Shown here: piece after piece, positions 58,680 through 63,019 of the stretch
How positions within the stretch are numbered: the first letter of the stretch is position 1
Layout of the letters: each line of letters starts with the position of its first letter
DNA from: Paracoccaceae bacterium
GTDB lineage: Bacteria > Pseudomonadota > Alphaproteobacteria > Rhodobacterales > Rhodobacteraceae
Direction: 5' to 3'
Length of the DNA stretch: 64,000 bases
Assembly (NCBI GenBank): GCA_024742695.1
Contig: JANSXY010000004.1
Location: forward strand, 124,001 to 188,000
Notes under the pieces: generated by a model
The model's input: only the letters and a program-made list of their open reading frames with translations
What the model was told of the DNA's origin: nothing
Databases searched by the model: none
Program-made: the position numbers and the translations under genes

Positions 58680-59147
58680 TCAGGCTACGGACCCGCTCGG
58701 CCTGGAGTTCTTGTACTTGAAATCATACGCCGCATCCGTCGGTCCGTTTTCGCGCAGGGACACCAGCTTCTCCTTGCCCTCGATCAGATCGGGAACGTGC
58801 CCGGCCTTGACCGGCCAGATCACGTGAGAGGCGACATCCATGGGCTCGAACCATTCGGCCCGGCGCGCCAGGAAGCGACCATGCACCGTGTTGTGTACGA
58901 AACGCTCGAAATCCTCGAAGCTTTCCCAGACGGACAGGGTTGCGAGCGCGACATCGGGGCGCCCGAACAAGCGGCCGGCGTCATTCCGGGGCAGATCGAG
59001 GTCTTCACCCTTCAGCCGCCACACGAAGCCCCTGGACCTGTCCGCCACCGCGTTGACACGATCCGTGTTGTTCTCGAAGCCGGCAATGCGTGGGTCGCCG
59101 GGCGGGTGAAGCAGGTAGCCCATGTTCATCTGTGCAATGTGCTGCAT
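58680..59147 (-). CDS. DUF3291 domain protein
   Basis: A 155-aa protein with the DUF3291 core HPPGDPRIAGFENNTDRVNAV, LSVWESFEDFERFVHNTVHG and WFEPMDVASHVIWPV. The fold resembles antibiotic biosynthesis monooxygenases (ABM). ATG 59147 is preceded by GGAG at six bases, better than ATG 59159. It is divergent from the AcoR-like regulator, 177 bases apart, and may share control with the flavin monooxygenase. Confidence 0.85.
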   Translation of the reverse strand: MQHIAQMNMGYLLHPPGDPRIAGFENNTDRVNAVADRSRGFVWRLKGEDLDLPRNDAGRLFGRPDVALATLSVWESFEDFERFVHNTVHGRFLARRAEWFEPMDVASHVIWPVKAGHVPDLIEGKEKLVSLRENGPTDAAYDFKYKNSRPSGSVA

Positions 59148-59324
59148 CGAAGGCTCCATGTCCGGGGTCGGGGCCAGAAGACGGTGCTCTTCCACCGCGC
59201 GGGGGTCAAGTTTGCGATGCCGTGCGCACTTGTCCCCGGCCTTCCGGCCGGCGCGAAGCGACGCTGATGCAACGGGCGTTTTGCGATTGACCGTGCGTGT
59301 AGTAGCCTTCCCGCGAGGTGACGC

Positions 59325-61067
59325 ATGCGCGACAGGGATCACGTCAAGGAGATCGACCGGGTTCTGAACGGTGAAGAGACCGGCCGGGATCTGCTTGTCG
59401 CCGAAAGCTGGCGCCGCTGCGTGGAAAGCTACGGCATGGATCCGACCCGACCGGACCCGGCCTATATCGTCTCCGAGGCGCAGCTGCGCGAGCACCGGGA
59501 ACAATCCGAACAGCTGATCGCCATCGCCCGTTCGGGCCTTCAGGGCCTGTTCCGGCAGGTCGCGGGGCAGAACTACGTTCTGCTGCTGGCCGACGCGAAG
59601 GGGGTCTGCGTCGATTTCTTCGGCGACCCCCGCTTCGAGGACGAGTTGCGCCAGGCCGGGTTGTACCTTGGGTCGGACTGGTCCGAGGATCTTGCGGGCA
59701 CCTGTGGCGTGGGATCGTGTCTGGTGACCGGCCAGGCCCTGACGATCCACCAGGCCGATCACTTTGGCCTCGCCCACACGCCCCTGTCCTGCACCTCTGC
59801 GCCGATCTACGACACCTCGGGGCAACTGACCGCGGTGCTGGACATTTCGCTGCTGCGCTCGCCCAGCCCGAAATCGAGCCAGAACCTTGCCATGTCGCTT
59901 GTGTCGGCCTCCGCCCGCCGGGTCGAGATGGCCAACCTCATGGCCGTCAACCGGCGTGACTGGGTGTTGCGGTTTTCCACCTCGCCCGAGTTCCTCGACG
60001 TCGATCCCGAGGCGGCCGTGGCGCTGGACGGATCGGGCCGGATCATCGGGATGACCAAGGGCGCCGAGCAGCTGGCGCCCGACCGTGGCGGCGCCCTGAT
60101 CGGCCGCCACATCGAGGATCTGCTGGAGTTTTCGCTGGACGATCTGCCGGACCTGATGCGCGGCCGGCCGACGGAGGATCGGGTGCTGCGCCTGAAGGAC
60201 GGCCGCGCCCTGTTCGGCCATGCGATCGCCCCGCAGGCCGCGCCGGTTCCGTCGCGCGACCGTGCCAGGGCCGAACTGGGCGCGCTGGCCGGCATCGCCG
60301 GCCCGGATCCCGGAATGGAACGGCTGGCGCATCAGGCGTCGCGGCTGGCGCGCAGCAAGGTTCCGATCACGATCCTGGGCGAAACCGGCACGGGCAAGGA
60401 ATACCTGGCCCGTGCCATCCATGTCTCGGGCCGGGCCGGGCGCTGGTTTCACATGCTGCGCTGCGCCGGGCTTGGCGCGGAAACGGTCAGGGCGCTGTCC
60501 GAGGCCGCGCCGGGCACCCTTTACCTGCGCGGGATCGACGATCTGCGCCCCGACGCGCAGGATGCCCTGCTTTGGCTGCTCGATGCCCGTGACGACCTGC
60601 GGGTGATCTCCTCCGCCGGGCCGGACCTCGATGCGAACCGCGGCGCTATCCGGGCCGATCTTCTGTTCCGTCTGGCCGGCGCCCGGCTGACCTTGCCGCC
60701 GTTGCGTTTGCGGCGGGATTTCGACTGGGTGCTGCAGCGGCTGTTCCGCCGGCGGGCGCCGGACGAAAGCCGCCTGTCGCCGGCGGCCCGGACCGAGCTT
60801 GCCGGGCGGGCCTGGCCCGGCAACATCCGCGAACTGGCGCATACGCTCGACGTGGCCGTGGCCCTGGCCGAGGGACAGGTGATCGACCTGCCCGATCTGC
60901 CGCCTCCGGCAACGGCGCCGCAACCGGCCACGGCACCGGACCAGGATCTGGAGGCGCTGCTGGCGGCCTGTCGGGGAAACATGTCGCAGGTCGCGCGACG
61001 GCTGGGCGTGAACCGCTCGACCGTGCTGCGGCGGGTGCGCAAGTCCGGGCTGGTGCCACGGGCCTAG
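59325..61067 (+). CDS. AcoR-like Fis-family regulator with degenerate AAA domain
   Basis: A 580-aa regulator. The N-terminal GAF-type sensing domain spans about 55-200, an AAA-like domain about 315-510 has Walker A GETGTGKE (352-359), and a Fis HTH (GNMSQVARRLGVNRSTVLRR) is at 551-570. The region between Cys380 and Gly397, where sigma-54 activators have GAFTGA, is only 16 residues and lacks it. Walker B reads LYLRGIDD rather than LFLDEI. It may therefore regulate without sigma-54. The GxxGxG-rich sequence WPGN and arginine finger remain. FMO gene follows after 152 bases. Confidence 0.87.
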   Translation: MRDRDHVKEIDRVLNGEETGRDLLVAESWRRCVESYGMDPTRPDPAYIVSEAQLREHREQSEQLIAIARSGLQGLFRQVAGQNYVLLLADAKGVCVDFFGDPRFEDELRQAGLYLGSDWSEDLAGTCGVGSCLVTGQALTIHQADHFGLAHTPLSCTSAPIYDTSGQLTAVLDISLLRSPSPKSSQNLAMSLVSASARRVEMANLMAVNRRDWVLRFSTSPEFLDVDPEAAVALDGSGRIIGMTKGAEQLAPDRGGALIGRHIEDLLEFSLDDLPDLMRGRPTEDRVLRLKDGRALFGHAIAPQAAPVPSRDRARAELGALAGIAGPDPGMERLAHQASRLARSKVPITILGETGTGKEYLARAIHVSGRAGRWFHMLRCAGLGAETVRALSEAAPGTLYLRGIDDLRPDAQDALLWLLDARDDLRVISSAGPDLDANRGAIRADLLFRLAGARLTLPPLRLRRDFDWVLQRLFRRRAPDESRLSPAARTELAGRAWPGNIRELAHTLDVAVALAEGQVIDLPDLPPPATAPQPATAPDQDLEALLAACRGNMSQVARRLGVNRSTVLRRVRKSGLVPRA

Positions 61068-61078
61068 CCGGACGCGAT

Positions 61079-61103
61079 GTTGCGCCCTGTTGCGCGCGCA
61101 ACG
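61079..61103. promoter_or_regulatory. Candidate activator site upstream of the flavin monooxygenase
   Basis: TGTTGCGC occurs at 61079-61086 and 61089-61096, and the second copy is part of the perfect palindrome GTTGCGCGCGCAAC (61090-61103). TGTTGC/GCAACA-type dyads are typical upstream sites of AcoR-class regulators. It lies about 117 bases before the FMO start. No convincing -24/-12 sigma-54 promoter follows. Confidence 0.45.
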
Positions 61104-61219
61104 GCATCGGCCGATTTCTACGGCCGCGGATCGGCCTTCCCGAAATTTCTGTGGCCTGAACCGCCGCGGGCCCTCAGGCTCCTTCGCGGGATCAAGACAA
61201 GATCCAATGGGAGGACTAC

Positions 61220-63019
61220 ATGCTCGACACGACCTTGACGGACCAGACCCAGGCCTTCCTGGACAGCTTCGGCCGGGCGCTGGAGGCCGGAGACATCGAT
61301 GCCGCCACCGGGATGTTTCTGGACGACTGCTACTGGCGCGACCTCGTCACCTTCACCTGGAACATCAAGACGATGGAGGGAAAGCCCCAGGTCGCGGACA
61401 TGCTCCGCCACCAGCTGGCTTCCACGAAGCCGACGGGATGGGCGCTGGCAGAGGGGGAACTGCCCAGCGAGGATGGCGGCGTCACGACGGCCTGGATCAG
61501 CTTCGAGACCGCGGTCGCGCGGGGCTACGGGTTGATCCGCCTCAAGGAGGGCAAGATCTGGACCCTGCTGACCACGATGGTGGAACTCAAGGGTCATGAA
61601 GAGCCCAAGGGCTTCGCCCGCCCGCTGGGCGCCAAGCATGGCGCCGGCAAGCATCGCACCACCTGGCTGGAAGAACGTCAGAAGGAAGAGGCCGAGCTGG
61701 GATACAAGACCCAGCCCTATTGCGTGATCATCGGCGGCGGCCAGGGGGGCATCGCCCTTGGCGCGCGCCTGCGCCAGTTGGGCGTGCCCACGATCATCGT
61801 CGAGAAGAACGACCGCCCCGGCGACAGCTGGCGCAACCGCTACAAATCGCTGTGCCTGCACGACCCGGTCTGGTACGACCACCTGCCCTACATCAAGTTT
61901 CCCGAGAACTGGCCGATCTTCAGCCCGAAGGACAAGATCGGCGACTGGCTGGAAATGTACACCAAGGTCATGGAGCTGAACTACTGGACCCGCACCACGG
62001 CCAAATCCGCCAGCTATGACGAGGCCACCGGCGAATGGACGGTGGTGGTGGATCGCGACGGCGAAGAGGTTGTGCTGAAACCCCGGCAGCTTGTGATGGC
62101 CACCGGCATGTCCGGCAAGGCGCGGATGCCGGATTTCCCGGGTATGGAGAGGTTCAAGGGCGATCAACACCACTCCAGCCAGCACCCCGGACCGGACCGG
62201 TATCGGGGCAAGAAGGCGGTTGTCGTCGGCTCCAACAACTCGGCCCACGATATCTGCGCGGCACTGTGGGAAAACGATGTCGACGTGACGATGGTGCAGC
62301 GGTCCTCGACCCATATCGTGCGGTCCGACACGCTGATGGAGGTCGGTCTTGGCGCGCTTTACTCCGAGGAAGCCGTGGCCAATGGCGTCACCACCGAGAA
62401 GGCCGACCTGATCTTCGCCTCGCTGCCCTACCGGATCCTGCACGAATTCCAGATCCCCGCCTATGCCGAGATGAAGAAGCGCGACGCGGCCTTCTACGAG
62501 GGGCTGGAAAAGGCCGGCTTCTGGCTGGACTGGGGCGACGACGACAGCGGGCTGTTCATGAAGTACCTGCGCCGCGGCTCGGGCTACTACATCGACATCG
62601 GCGCCAGCCAGCTGATCATCGACGGCGAGATCAAGCTCAAGCGCGGACAGGTCGTGGAGGTCGACGAGACCGGCGTGATCCTCGACGACGGCACGCATCT
62701 GGATGCCGACGTGATCGTCTACGCCACCGGCTACAACTCGATGAACGGCTGGGTGGCCGACCTGATGGGCCAGGACACGGCGGACCGGCTTGGCAAATGC
62801 TGGGGGCTCGGATCCGACACCACGAAGGATCCCGGCCCCTGGGAAGGCGAGGAACGCAACATGTGGAAGCCGACGCAGGTGCCGGCCCTGTGGATGCACG
62901 GCGGCAACCTGCACCAGTCCCGGCATTATTCCCAGTTCCTGAGCCTGCAGATCAAGGCCCGGATGGAAGGCATTCCGACCCCGGTCTACGGGCTGCAGGA
63001 GGTGCACCACCTGTCCTGA
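61220..63019 (+). CDS. Flavin-containing monooxygenase with N-terminal NTF2-like domain
   Basis: A 599-aa NAD(P)H/FAD monooxygenase. Residues 1 to about 130 form an NTF2/SnoaL-like domain (FLDSFGRALEAGDIDAATGMF); the FMO part begins about 170 with IIGGGQGGIALGARLRQLG, has the NADPH fold VVVGSNNSAHDICAALWEND and ends near LQEVHHLS. The FMO signature HPGPDRYRGKKAVVVG is visible. Class B FMOs oxidise ketones, amines or sulfides. The upstream AcoR-like protein probably regulates it. Start ATG 61220, ribosome site GGGAGG. Confidence 0.9.
   Translation: MLDTTLTDQTQAFLDSFGRALEAGDIDAATGMFLDDCYWRDLVTFTWNIKTMEGKPQVADMLRHQLASTKPTGWALAEGELPSEDGGVTTAWISFETAVARGYGLIRLKEGKIWTLLTTMVELKGHEEPKGFARPLGAKHGAGKHRTTWLEERQKEEAELGYKTQPYCVIIGGGQGGIALGARLRQLGVPTIIVEKNDRPGDSWRNRYKSLCLHDPVWYDHLPYIKFPENWPIFSPKDKIGDWLEMYTKVMELNYWTRTTAKSASYDEATGEWTVVVDRDGEEVVLKPRQLVMATGMSGKARMPDFPGMERFKGDQHHSSQHPGPDRYRGKKAVVVGSNNSAHDICAALWENDVDVTMVQRSSTHIVRSDTLMEVGLGALYSEEAVANGVTTEKADLIFASLPYRILHEFQIPAYAEMKKRDAAFYEGLEKAGFWLDWGDDDSGLFMKYLRRGSGYYIDIGASQLIIDGEIKLKRGQVVEVDETGVILDDGTHLDADVIVYATGYNSMNGWVADLMGQDTADRLGKCWGLGSDTTKDPGPWEGEERNMWKPTQVPALWMHGGNLHQSRHYSQFLSLQIKARMEGIPTPVYGLQEVHHLS

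Follow-up and report, generated by a model that had tools for sequence, protein, structure and literature searches.

A degenerate AAA+ regulator that has probably left the sigma-54 system, next to a flavin monooxygenase gene of a Paracoccaceae bacterium

Two loops, L1 and L2, distinguish the enhancer-binding proteins (bEBPs) and act on sigma-54, as set out in PMC7175178, and according to PMC2745333 L2 is believed to act largely through L1. Members without the GAFTGA motif are already known: PMC3162934 names DhaR, TyrR, HupR and VpsR and gives DhaR as sigma-70 dependent. PMC10274813 adds the NtrC proteins of R. capsulatus and Caulobacter, and states for R. capsulatus NtrC that ATP binding is needed and hydrolysis is not. 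Here I describe a regulator that goes further in its losses, encoded just before a flavin monooxygenase (FMO) gene in the window, that is, the whole stretch of 64,000 nucleotides of Paracoccaceae bacterium DNA that was analysed (Table 1). No paper on the regulator or on control of the FMO was found among the open-access papers searched.

Table 1. Features of the regulator gene, the operator region and the FMO gene, in window coordinates
Feature	Position	Strand	Basis
GAF/degenerate AAA+/Fis-HTH regulator	59325..61067	+	580 aa, Pfam; AlphaFold2 mean pLDDT 87.5
GAF sensor domain	59514..59933	+	Pfam, residues 64-203
Walker A GETGTGKE, residues 352-359, kept	60378..60401	+	Lys in 38/39 orthologues
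L1/GAFTGA deletion junction, residues 384-396, about 21 residues absent	60474..60512	+	alignment
Walker B Asp-Glu replaced by Arg402-Gly403	60528..60533	+	alignment
L2 (pre-sensor-I loop) deletion junction, residues 418-425, about 12 residues absent	60576..60599	+	alignment
Arginine-finger helix IRADLLFRL, with Arg449 and Arg443	60648..60674	+	residue conservation
Fis-type HTH_8 DNA-binding domain, residues 542-573	60948..61043	+	Pfam
Operator, direct GTTGC half-site on the upstream side	61079..61083	+	
Palindromic operator core GTTGCGCGCGCAAC	61089..61102	+	
TGG block at a fixed distance past the operator, possible core promoter part (tentative)	61152..61154	+	column information 0.76-0.91 bits, operator-anchored gap-free alignment
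GGAGG ribosome-binding site of the FMO	61210..61214	+	purine-rich block ahead of the start codon in the alignment
FMO, SnoaL-FMO type II flavin-dependent/Baeyer-Villiger monooxygenase, JsFMO relative	61220..63019	+	domains, PDB 8acs match, conserved neighbour

Lost and kept parts of the AAA+ domain

The regulator's frame runs from its ATG to its stop codon, at the limits given in Table 1, without a single internal stop, and its product scores above the Pfam cut-offs for PF14532, PF00158, PF25601 and PF02954. Descent from the bEBP AAA+ superfamily is evident in a Sigma54_activat-type fold, P-loop, lid and Fis HTH. In an AlphaFold2 model made with 30 sequences (pTM 0.54), the stretch 22-212 matches E. 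coli DhaR(N) over 184 residues (rmsd 1.6, VIA-align Z 26.2), and residues 319-531 form an AAA+ domain with Z of about 21 to FlrC, NtrX, FleQ and VpsR.

Relatives were collected from 295 genomes of the window's family, from a contig search (best 80 of 570) and from FMO-anchored searches, which together gave at least 39 distinct proteins of the same short form (L032 and L050 were dropped before counting and L007 and L018 kept; cores identical). The dropped L050 (JAFKDC010000004.1), titled Enemella evansiae, an actinobacterial name, has a regulator core identical to that of genome G002; the assembly is probably mislabelled or contaminated. Regular expressions for the GAFTGA and Walker B motifs proved too strict, missing GAYTGA, GSFSGA, NSFTGA and GAFTGG, and motif states were then taken from the alignment.

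Comparison with full-length relatives such as L047 shows an L1 segment of 13 residues, GAETVRALSEAAP, in place of 34, so that about 21 residues are gone, GAFTGA and its flanks included. The Walker B sequence LFLDEIG of the relatives is LYLRGID in the regulator. An earlier, sequence-only reading of this DNA had noted both losses together with an intact Walker A, and the alignment bears it out on all three points. It had missed a second deletion, in L2, where 8 residues stand against 20 in full-length relatives. As both loops act on sigma-54, L2 presumably for the most part through L1, their joint loss is coherent. The L1 deletion is common to all 39 short-form orthologues; the L2 segment measures 7-8 residues in 37 of them and 14 in L016 and L039, compared with 20 in intact relatives. 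The Walker B Asp survives in 2/39 and the Glu in 0/39. Kept are the Walker A Lys (38/39), the sensor-II Arg (39/39), the P-loop glycines, which are invariant across a 42-sequence alignment, Arg449 (39/39) and, in 19/39, Arg443; the last two are the arginine fingers, called R168-like and R162-like after the PspF residues.

Mean pairwise identity among the short forms (n=39) and among seven full-length proteins (L047, L048, L052, L167, L190, L191 and L026) is the same for the N-terminus plus GAF (0.77 and 0.77) and far apart in the middle of the AAA+ core (0.45 versus 0.77), with values of 0.67 versus 0.54 in the lid and 0.73 versus 0.65 in the HTH. Judged by these identities, decay is limited to the AAA+ middle. 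For ten short-form pairs simple NG86, with a dS that often exceeded 1, put dN/dS at 0.08-0.38 for the AAA+ part, at 0.03-0.10 for the GAF part and below 1 in every domain; by this measure the AAA+ remnant is under relaxed yet still purifying selection. A frame error or a dying pseudogene, suggested by motif loss within a catalytic domain, is next to impossible in view of the frame that is open in 39/39 orthologues, their shared deletions, these dN/dS values, and the coupling of the regulator to its operator and FMO in 38/39.

The 39 short forms make up one clade (SH-aLRT 99) in a 71-row tree from which the AAA+ trait columns were left out, a tree of a quick kind with SH-aLRT support only and a long-branch warning among distant rows. 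Its sister (support 96) is L025, which has lost GAFTGA and keeps the Walker B DE and L2. The next group holds the full-length proteins of Nitratireductor (L047), Bradyrhizobium (L048), Achromobacter (L052) and G129 (L026), the last from the window's own family, as well as L027, which has lost L1 independently and reads DK at Walker B. Within the short-form clade, L016 and L039 still have the Asp of Walker B and some of L2. Placed in series, these proteins run from the intact L047, L048 and L206, through L025 (and separately L027) with only L1 lost, to L016 and L039, and finally to the 37/39 from which both Walker B acids and L2 have gone as well. Reading the intermediates in this way, which is not a reconstruction, L1 may have been lost first, the Walker B Glu next, together with L2, and the Asp last.

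The FMO gene, its operator and sigma-54

The FMO aligns with JsFMO (PDB 8acs) over 587 residues (E 1e-287). PMC10028610 describes JsFMO, which oxidises ketones and thioesters, as a type II FMO whose N-terminus is SnoaL-like. An FMO gene lies 3' of the regulator in 38 of the 39 short-form loci; in L033 the best FMO match spans only 200 residues. At the short-form locus L053 (Roseovarius sp. A-2) neither FMO nor operator was found within the 5 kb examined, and the downstream genes there are on the opposite strand and, read from their translations, have the appearance of an HflK/HflC-type pair. SDR and zinc alcohol dehydrogenases are neighbours in the full-length operons L047 and L048, and a zinc alcohol dehydrogenase follows the FMO of the short-form locus L039, a hint at alcohol/ketone oxidation. 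A search for the FMO substrate and the GAF ligand found neither. One genome, G238, carries two different short-form regulators (L022 and L031) with an FMO gene after each. Upstream of the window's regulator, and divergent from it, is a short minus-strand ORF (58680-59150), presumably encoding a small DUF3291-type protein. Two other FMO-adjacent regulators, L193:6953-8131 (G891) and L194 (G956), are about 390 aa long and have GAF and Fis HTH without AAA+ (Pfam domains checked for L193); a search for a sigma-54 site before their FMO genes found none.

Comparing the regions before the FMO genes brings out an operator of the form GTTGC-N5..7-GTTGCN4GCAAC, present at 38/38 short-form loci that have an FMO and at 0/41 other FMO upstream regions, some of which belong to FMO genes that have no regulator of this kind. 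In the window it is GTTGC-N5-GTTGCGCGCGCAAC at 61079-61102, between the regulator and FMO genes, and this is the only window match at up to two mismatches (0.26 expected). The palindrome lies 118-135 bp upstream of the FMO start codon across the short-form loci, and because the step from half-site to palindrome is 10-12 bp, roughly one helical turn, the site may take up an oligomer or at least two dimers. The window's genome has six GTTGCN4GCAAC sites versus one for the reversed control; when a wider regulon was sought in it, the other five sites proved to be without the upstream half-site, which favours a single target. At L027 the palindrome differs and is longer (GTTGCAGCCGCTGCAAC). A scan of 61040-61240 found no sigma-70 consensus promoter or terminator; the missing consensus promoter fits an activator-dependent promoter and is not evidence for one.

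Promoters of the -24/-12 kind were scored with a weight matrix set up by hand from consensus frequencies (p from 100 shuffles, floor 0.01), before the FMO or, for L047 and L048, where the FMO lies inside a longer operon, after the regulator. An earlier, hand-weighted sigma-54 score had been dropped for separating the groups poorly, partly because it covered only the region before the FMO and thus not that operon arrangement. With the matrix, a -24/-12 site is present at 11/11 loci whose regulator has a full-length AAA+ domain (best scores 11.7-21, p<=0.03), counting L200, where the regulator is divided between two frames and has unverified motifs. Among short-form loci 8/38 reach p<=0.05, with a best score of 12.1, and the medians are 15.5 for full-length and 5.5 for short-form loci (Mann-Whitney p ~1e-6). 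Strong sites, unshuffled and outside the 11, also lie 3' of the regulator in the full-length relatives L206, L208 and L209. L206 is an intact orthologue in G129, a genome of the same family as the window's, and there the FMO follows 3 kb downstream. Before the window's FMO no significant site was found (best score 4.9, shuffle p 0.41), in agreement with the sequence-only reading, which had seen no -24/-12 element there, and L027 likewise has no significant sigma-54 site. Six of the eight short-form matches lie inside the operator; five of the eight are an identical CGGCGTTGCGTTTGCA overlapping it, L040 is near-identical, and the others are L009 and L049. At least two of the genomes with this CGGCGTTGCGTTTGCA, G087 and G214, are without sigma-54.

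The distribution of sigma-54 itself points the same way. A sigma-54 domain scores above cut-off in 92 of the 295 family genomes, so rpoN has been lost often and patchily in the window's family. Twenty-five of the 295 have a homologue of the regulator at E<=1e-60, and 19 of these carry the short form. Seven of the 19, with completeness of 99-100%, have no match to Sigma54_DBD or Sigma54_CBD; sigma-54 is present in the other 12/19, the window's own genome included, versus 6/6 genomes with full-length, intermediate or distant forms, numbers too small to decide the matter alone. These seven genomes are comparative grounds for a GAFTGA-less bEBP of the sigma-70 type that works without sigma-54, and since the sigma-54 gene is missing from them, the regulator very probably controls the FMO in another way. 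In the window's genome, where rpoN is present, four of the five other enhancer-binding-type proteins (L002, L003, L005 and L006) are without GAFTGA, and L004 is the only one of the five with the motif (GSFTGA).

A probable mechanism and its rivals

That a protein of this kind does not remodel sigma-54, as was proposed from the sequence alone, is now strongly supported: both loops have gone along with the Walker B acids, sigma-54 is absent from 7/19 short-form genomes, and the window's FMO promoter is without the -24/-12 site that 11/11 full-length loci have. It seems probable that the regulator is a DhaR/AcoR-type protein that has left the sigma-54 system and controls the FMO through its operator with a sigma-70-family polymerase, likeliest as an activator and with a non-hydrolysing AAA+ domain. 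The GAF domain would sense a signal, and the Fis-type HTH would bind the single dedicated operator between the two genes. From a site far enough upstream to leave the core promoter free, the regulator would drive FMO transcription with the sigma-70-family polymerase, a choice of polymerase that I infer by elimination and from the precedents. The AAA+ domain would no longer hydrolyse ATP or contact sigma-54, and would live on as a folded module for oligomerisation that probably binds nucleotide and keeps it and the subunits together, in the manner reported for R. capsulatus NtrC (PMC10274813). Oligomerisation and a GAF ligand are presumed here; binding of ATP without hydrolysis is plausible from the Walker A Lys, the sensor-II Arg and the one arginine finger kept in 39/39. 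More tentatively, the AAA+ motor may have been dismantled stepwise as the regulator-target pair stayed together, its P-loop now serving at a sigma-70 promoter as a switch for assembly that binds ATP or ADP; this would have let many descendants lose sigma-54.

How much of this the AAA+ remnant still contributes is where the readings part. It might do no more than fold and act as a spacer or in dimerisation, within a plain GAF-HTH regulator that binds no nucleotide: its middle evolves fastest (identity 0.45, versus 0.77 in the GAF part), one arginine finger is lost in 20/39, and the FMO-linked L193 and L194 regulators do with GAF and HTH and no AAA+ at all. Relaxed selection on the AAA+ part could also be a sign that the protein need no longer bind nucleotide. 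However, the invariant P-loop glycines, the Walker A Lys (38/39) and the R168-like and sensor-II arginines (each 39/39) exceed what a spacer needs, and I consider this reading rather doubtful. That the regulator acts through sigma-54 after all, for instance in a mixed ring with another, intact activator, is very improbable. The window's genome does have rpoN and the GSFTGA activator L004, and weak GG-N10-GC matches occur at a few loci, but 7/19 short-form genomes have no sigma-54 gene and no -24/-12 site is conserved.

The direction of control is a separate matter, and activation rather than repression is what I infer. TyrR-class proteins both repress and activate, so the regulator could be a sigma-54-independent repressor that leaves its operator when the GAF ligand binds, whereupon a constitutive promoter of the sigma-70 type fires. 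For Caulobacter NtrC, competition with CtrA for sigma-70 promoters is a possibility raised in PMC10274813. An operator 118-135 bp before the FMO start, with the TGG block about 60 bp further downstream, fits an activator better than it does a repressor lying over the core promoter, however; no consensus promoter able to fire unaided was found in 61040-61240, and the full-length orthologues adjoin sigma-54 promoters, which require an activator. Repression therefore looks unlikely.

The same regulator-target pair exists in two states, a sigma-54-driven intact motor and a sigma-54-free dead one, and both occur within one family (G129 and the window's genome). This allows a direct test of how a bEBP gives up remodelling powered by ATP for activation of the ordinary kind, and lets the role of a non-hydrolysing AAA+ domain be tested. 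A type II Baeyer-Villiger/flavin monooxygenase also gains an operator that is defined and a sensor circuit that is likely. In annotations the label "sigma-54-dependent" is best avoided for genes of this sort.

Comparison with known systems

GAFTGA, the Walker B Asp-Glu, L2 and a -24/-12 promoter were each looked for as defining features of a sigma-54-dependent bEBP and none was found, so in function the regulator is not one. The sequence-only reading had named AcoR, DhaR and TyrR-class proteins as the ones to align, and all three differ from the regulator. The AcoR-type sigma-54 activators L047, L048 and L052 share 51-52% identity, collinear domains and a nearby FMO orthologue with the regulator, but keep L1 (GAFTGA; GAYTGA in L052), DE, L2 and the -24/-12 promoter.

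E. coli DhaR, which regulates dihydroxyacetone kinase, resembles the regulator in its GAF-containing N-terminus, its Fis HTH and the loss of both GAFTGA and the Walker B acids (EK for DE). Unlike the regulator it keeps the L2 segment, and it is tied to dhaKLM rather than to an FMO. The best NCBIfam model for the regulator is that of DhaR (NF008485), at 155.1 bits against a cut-off of 551, which places it outside the DhaR equivalog. TyrR and PhhR have also lost GAFTGA and, according to PMC3162934, partner sigma-70; E. coli TyrR, however, keeps both the Walker B DE and the L2 segment. R. capsulatus NtrC and HupR and Caulobacter NtrC are alphaproteobacterial and GAFTGA-less like the regulator, and act at sigma-70 promoters as PMC10274813 describes, but these are response regulators, whereas the sensor here is a GAF domain. 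The regulator is further set apart from that group by having lost L1, L2 and both Walker B acids together. As far as the alignments reach, then, the short-form clade exceeds the losses of DhaR and TyrR, and it does so with full-length orthologues still attached to the same target gene.
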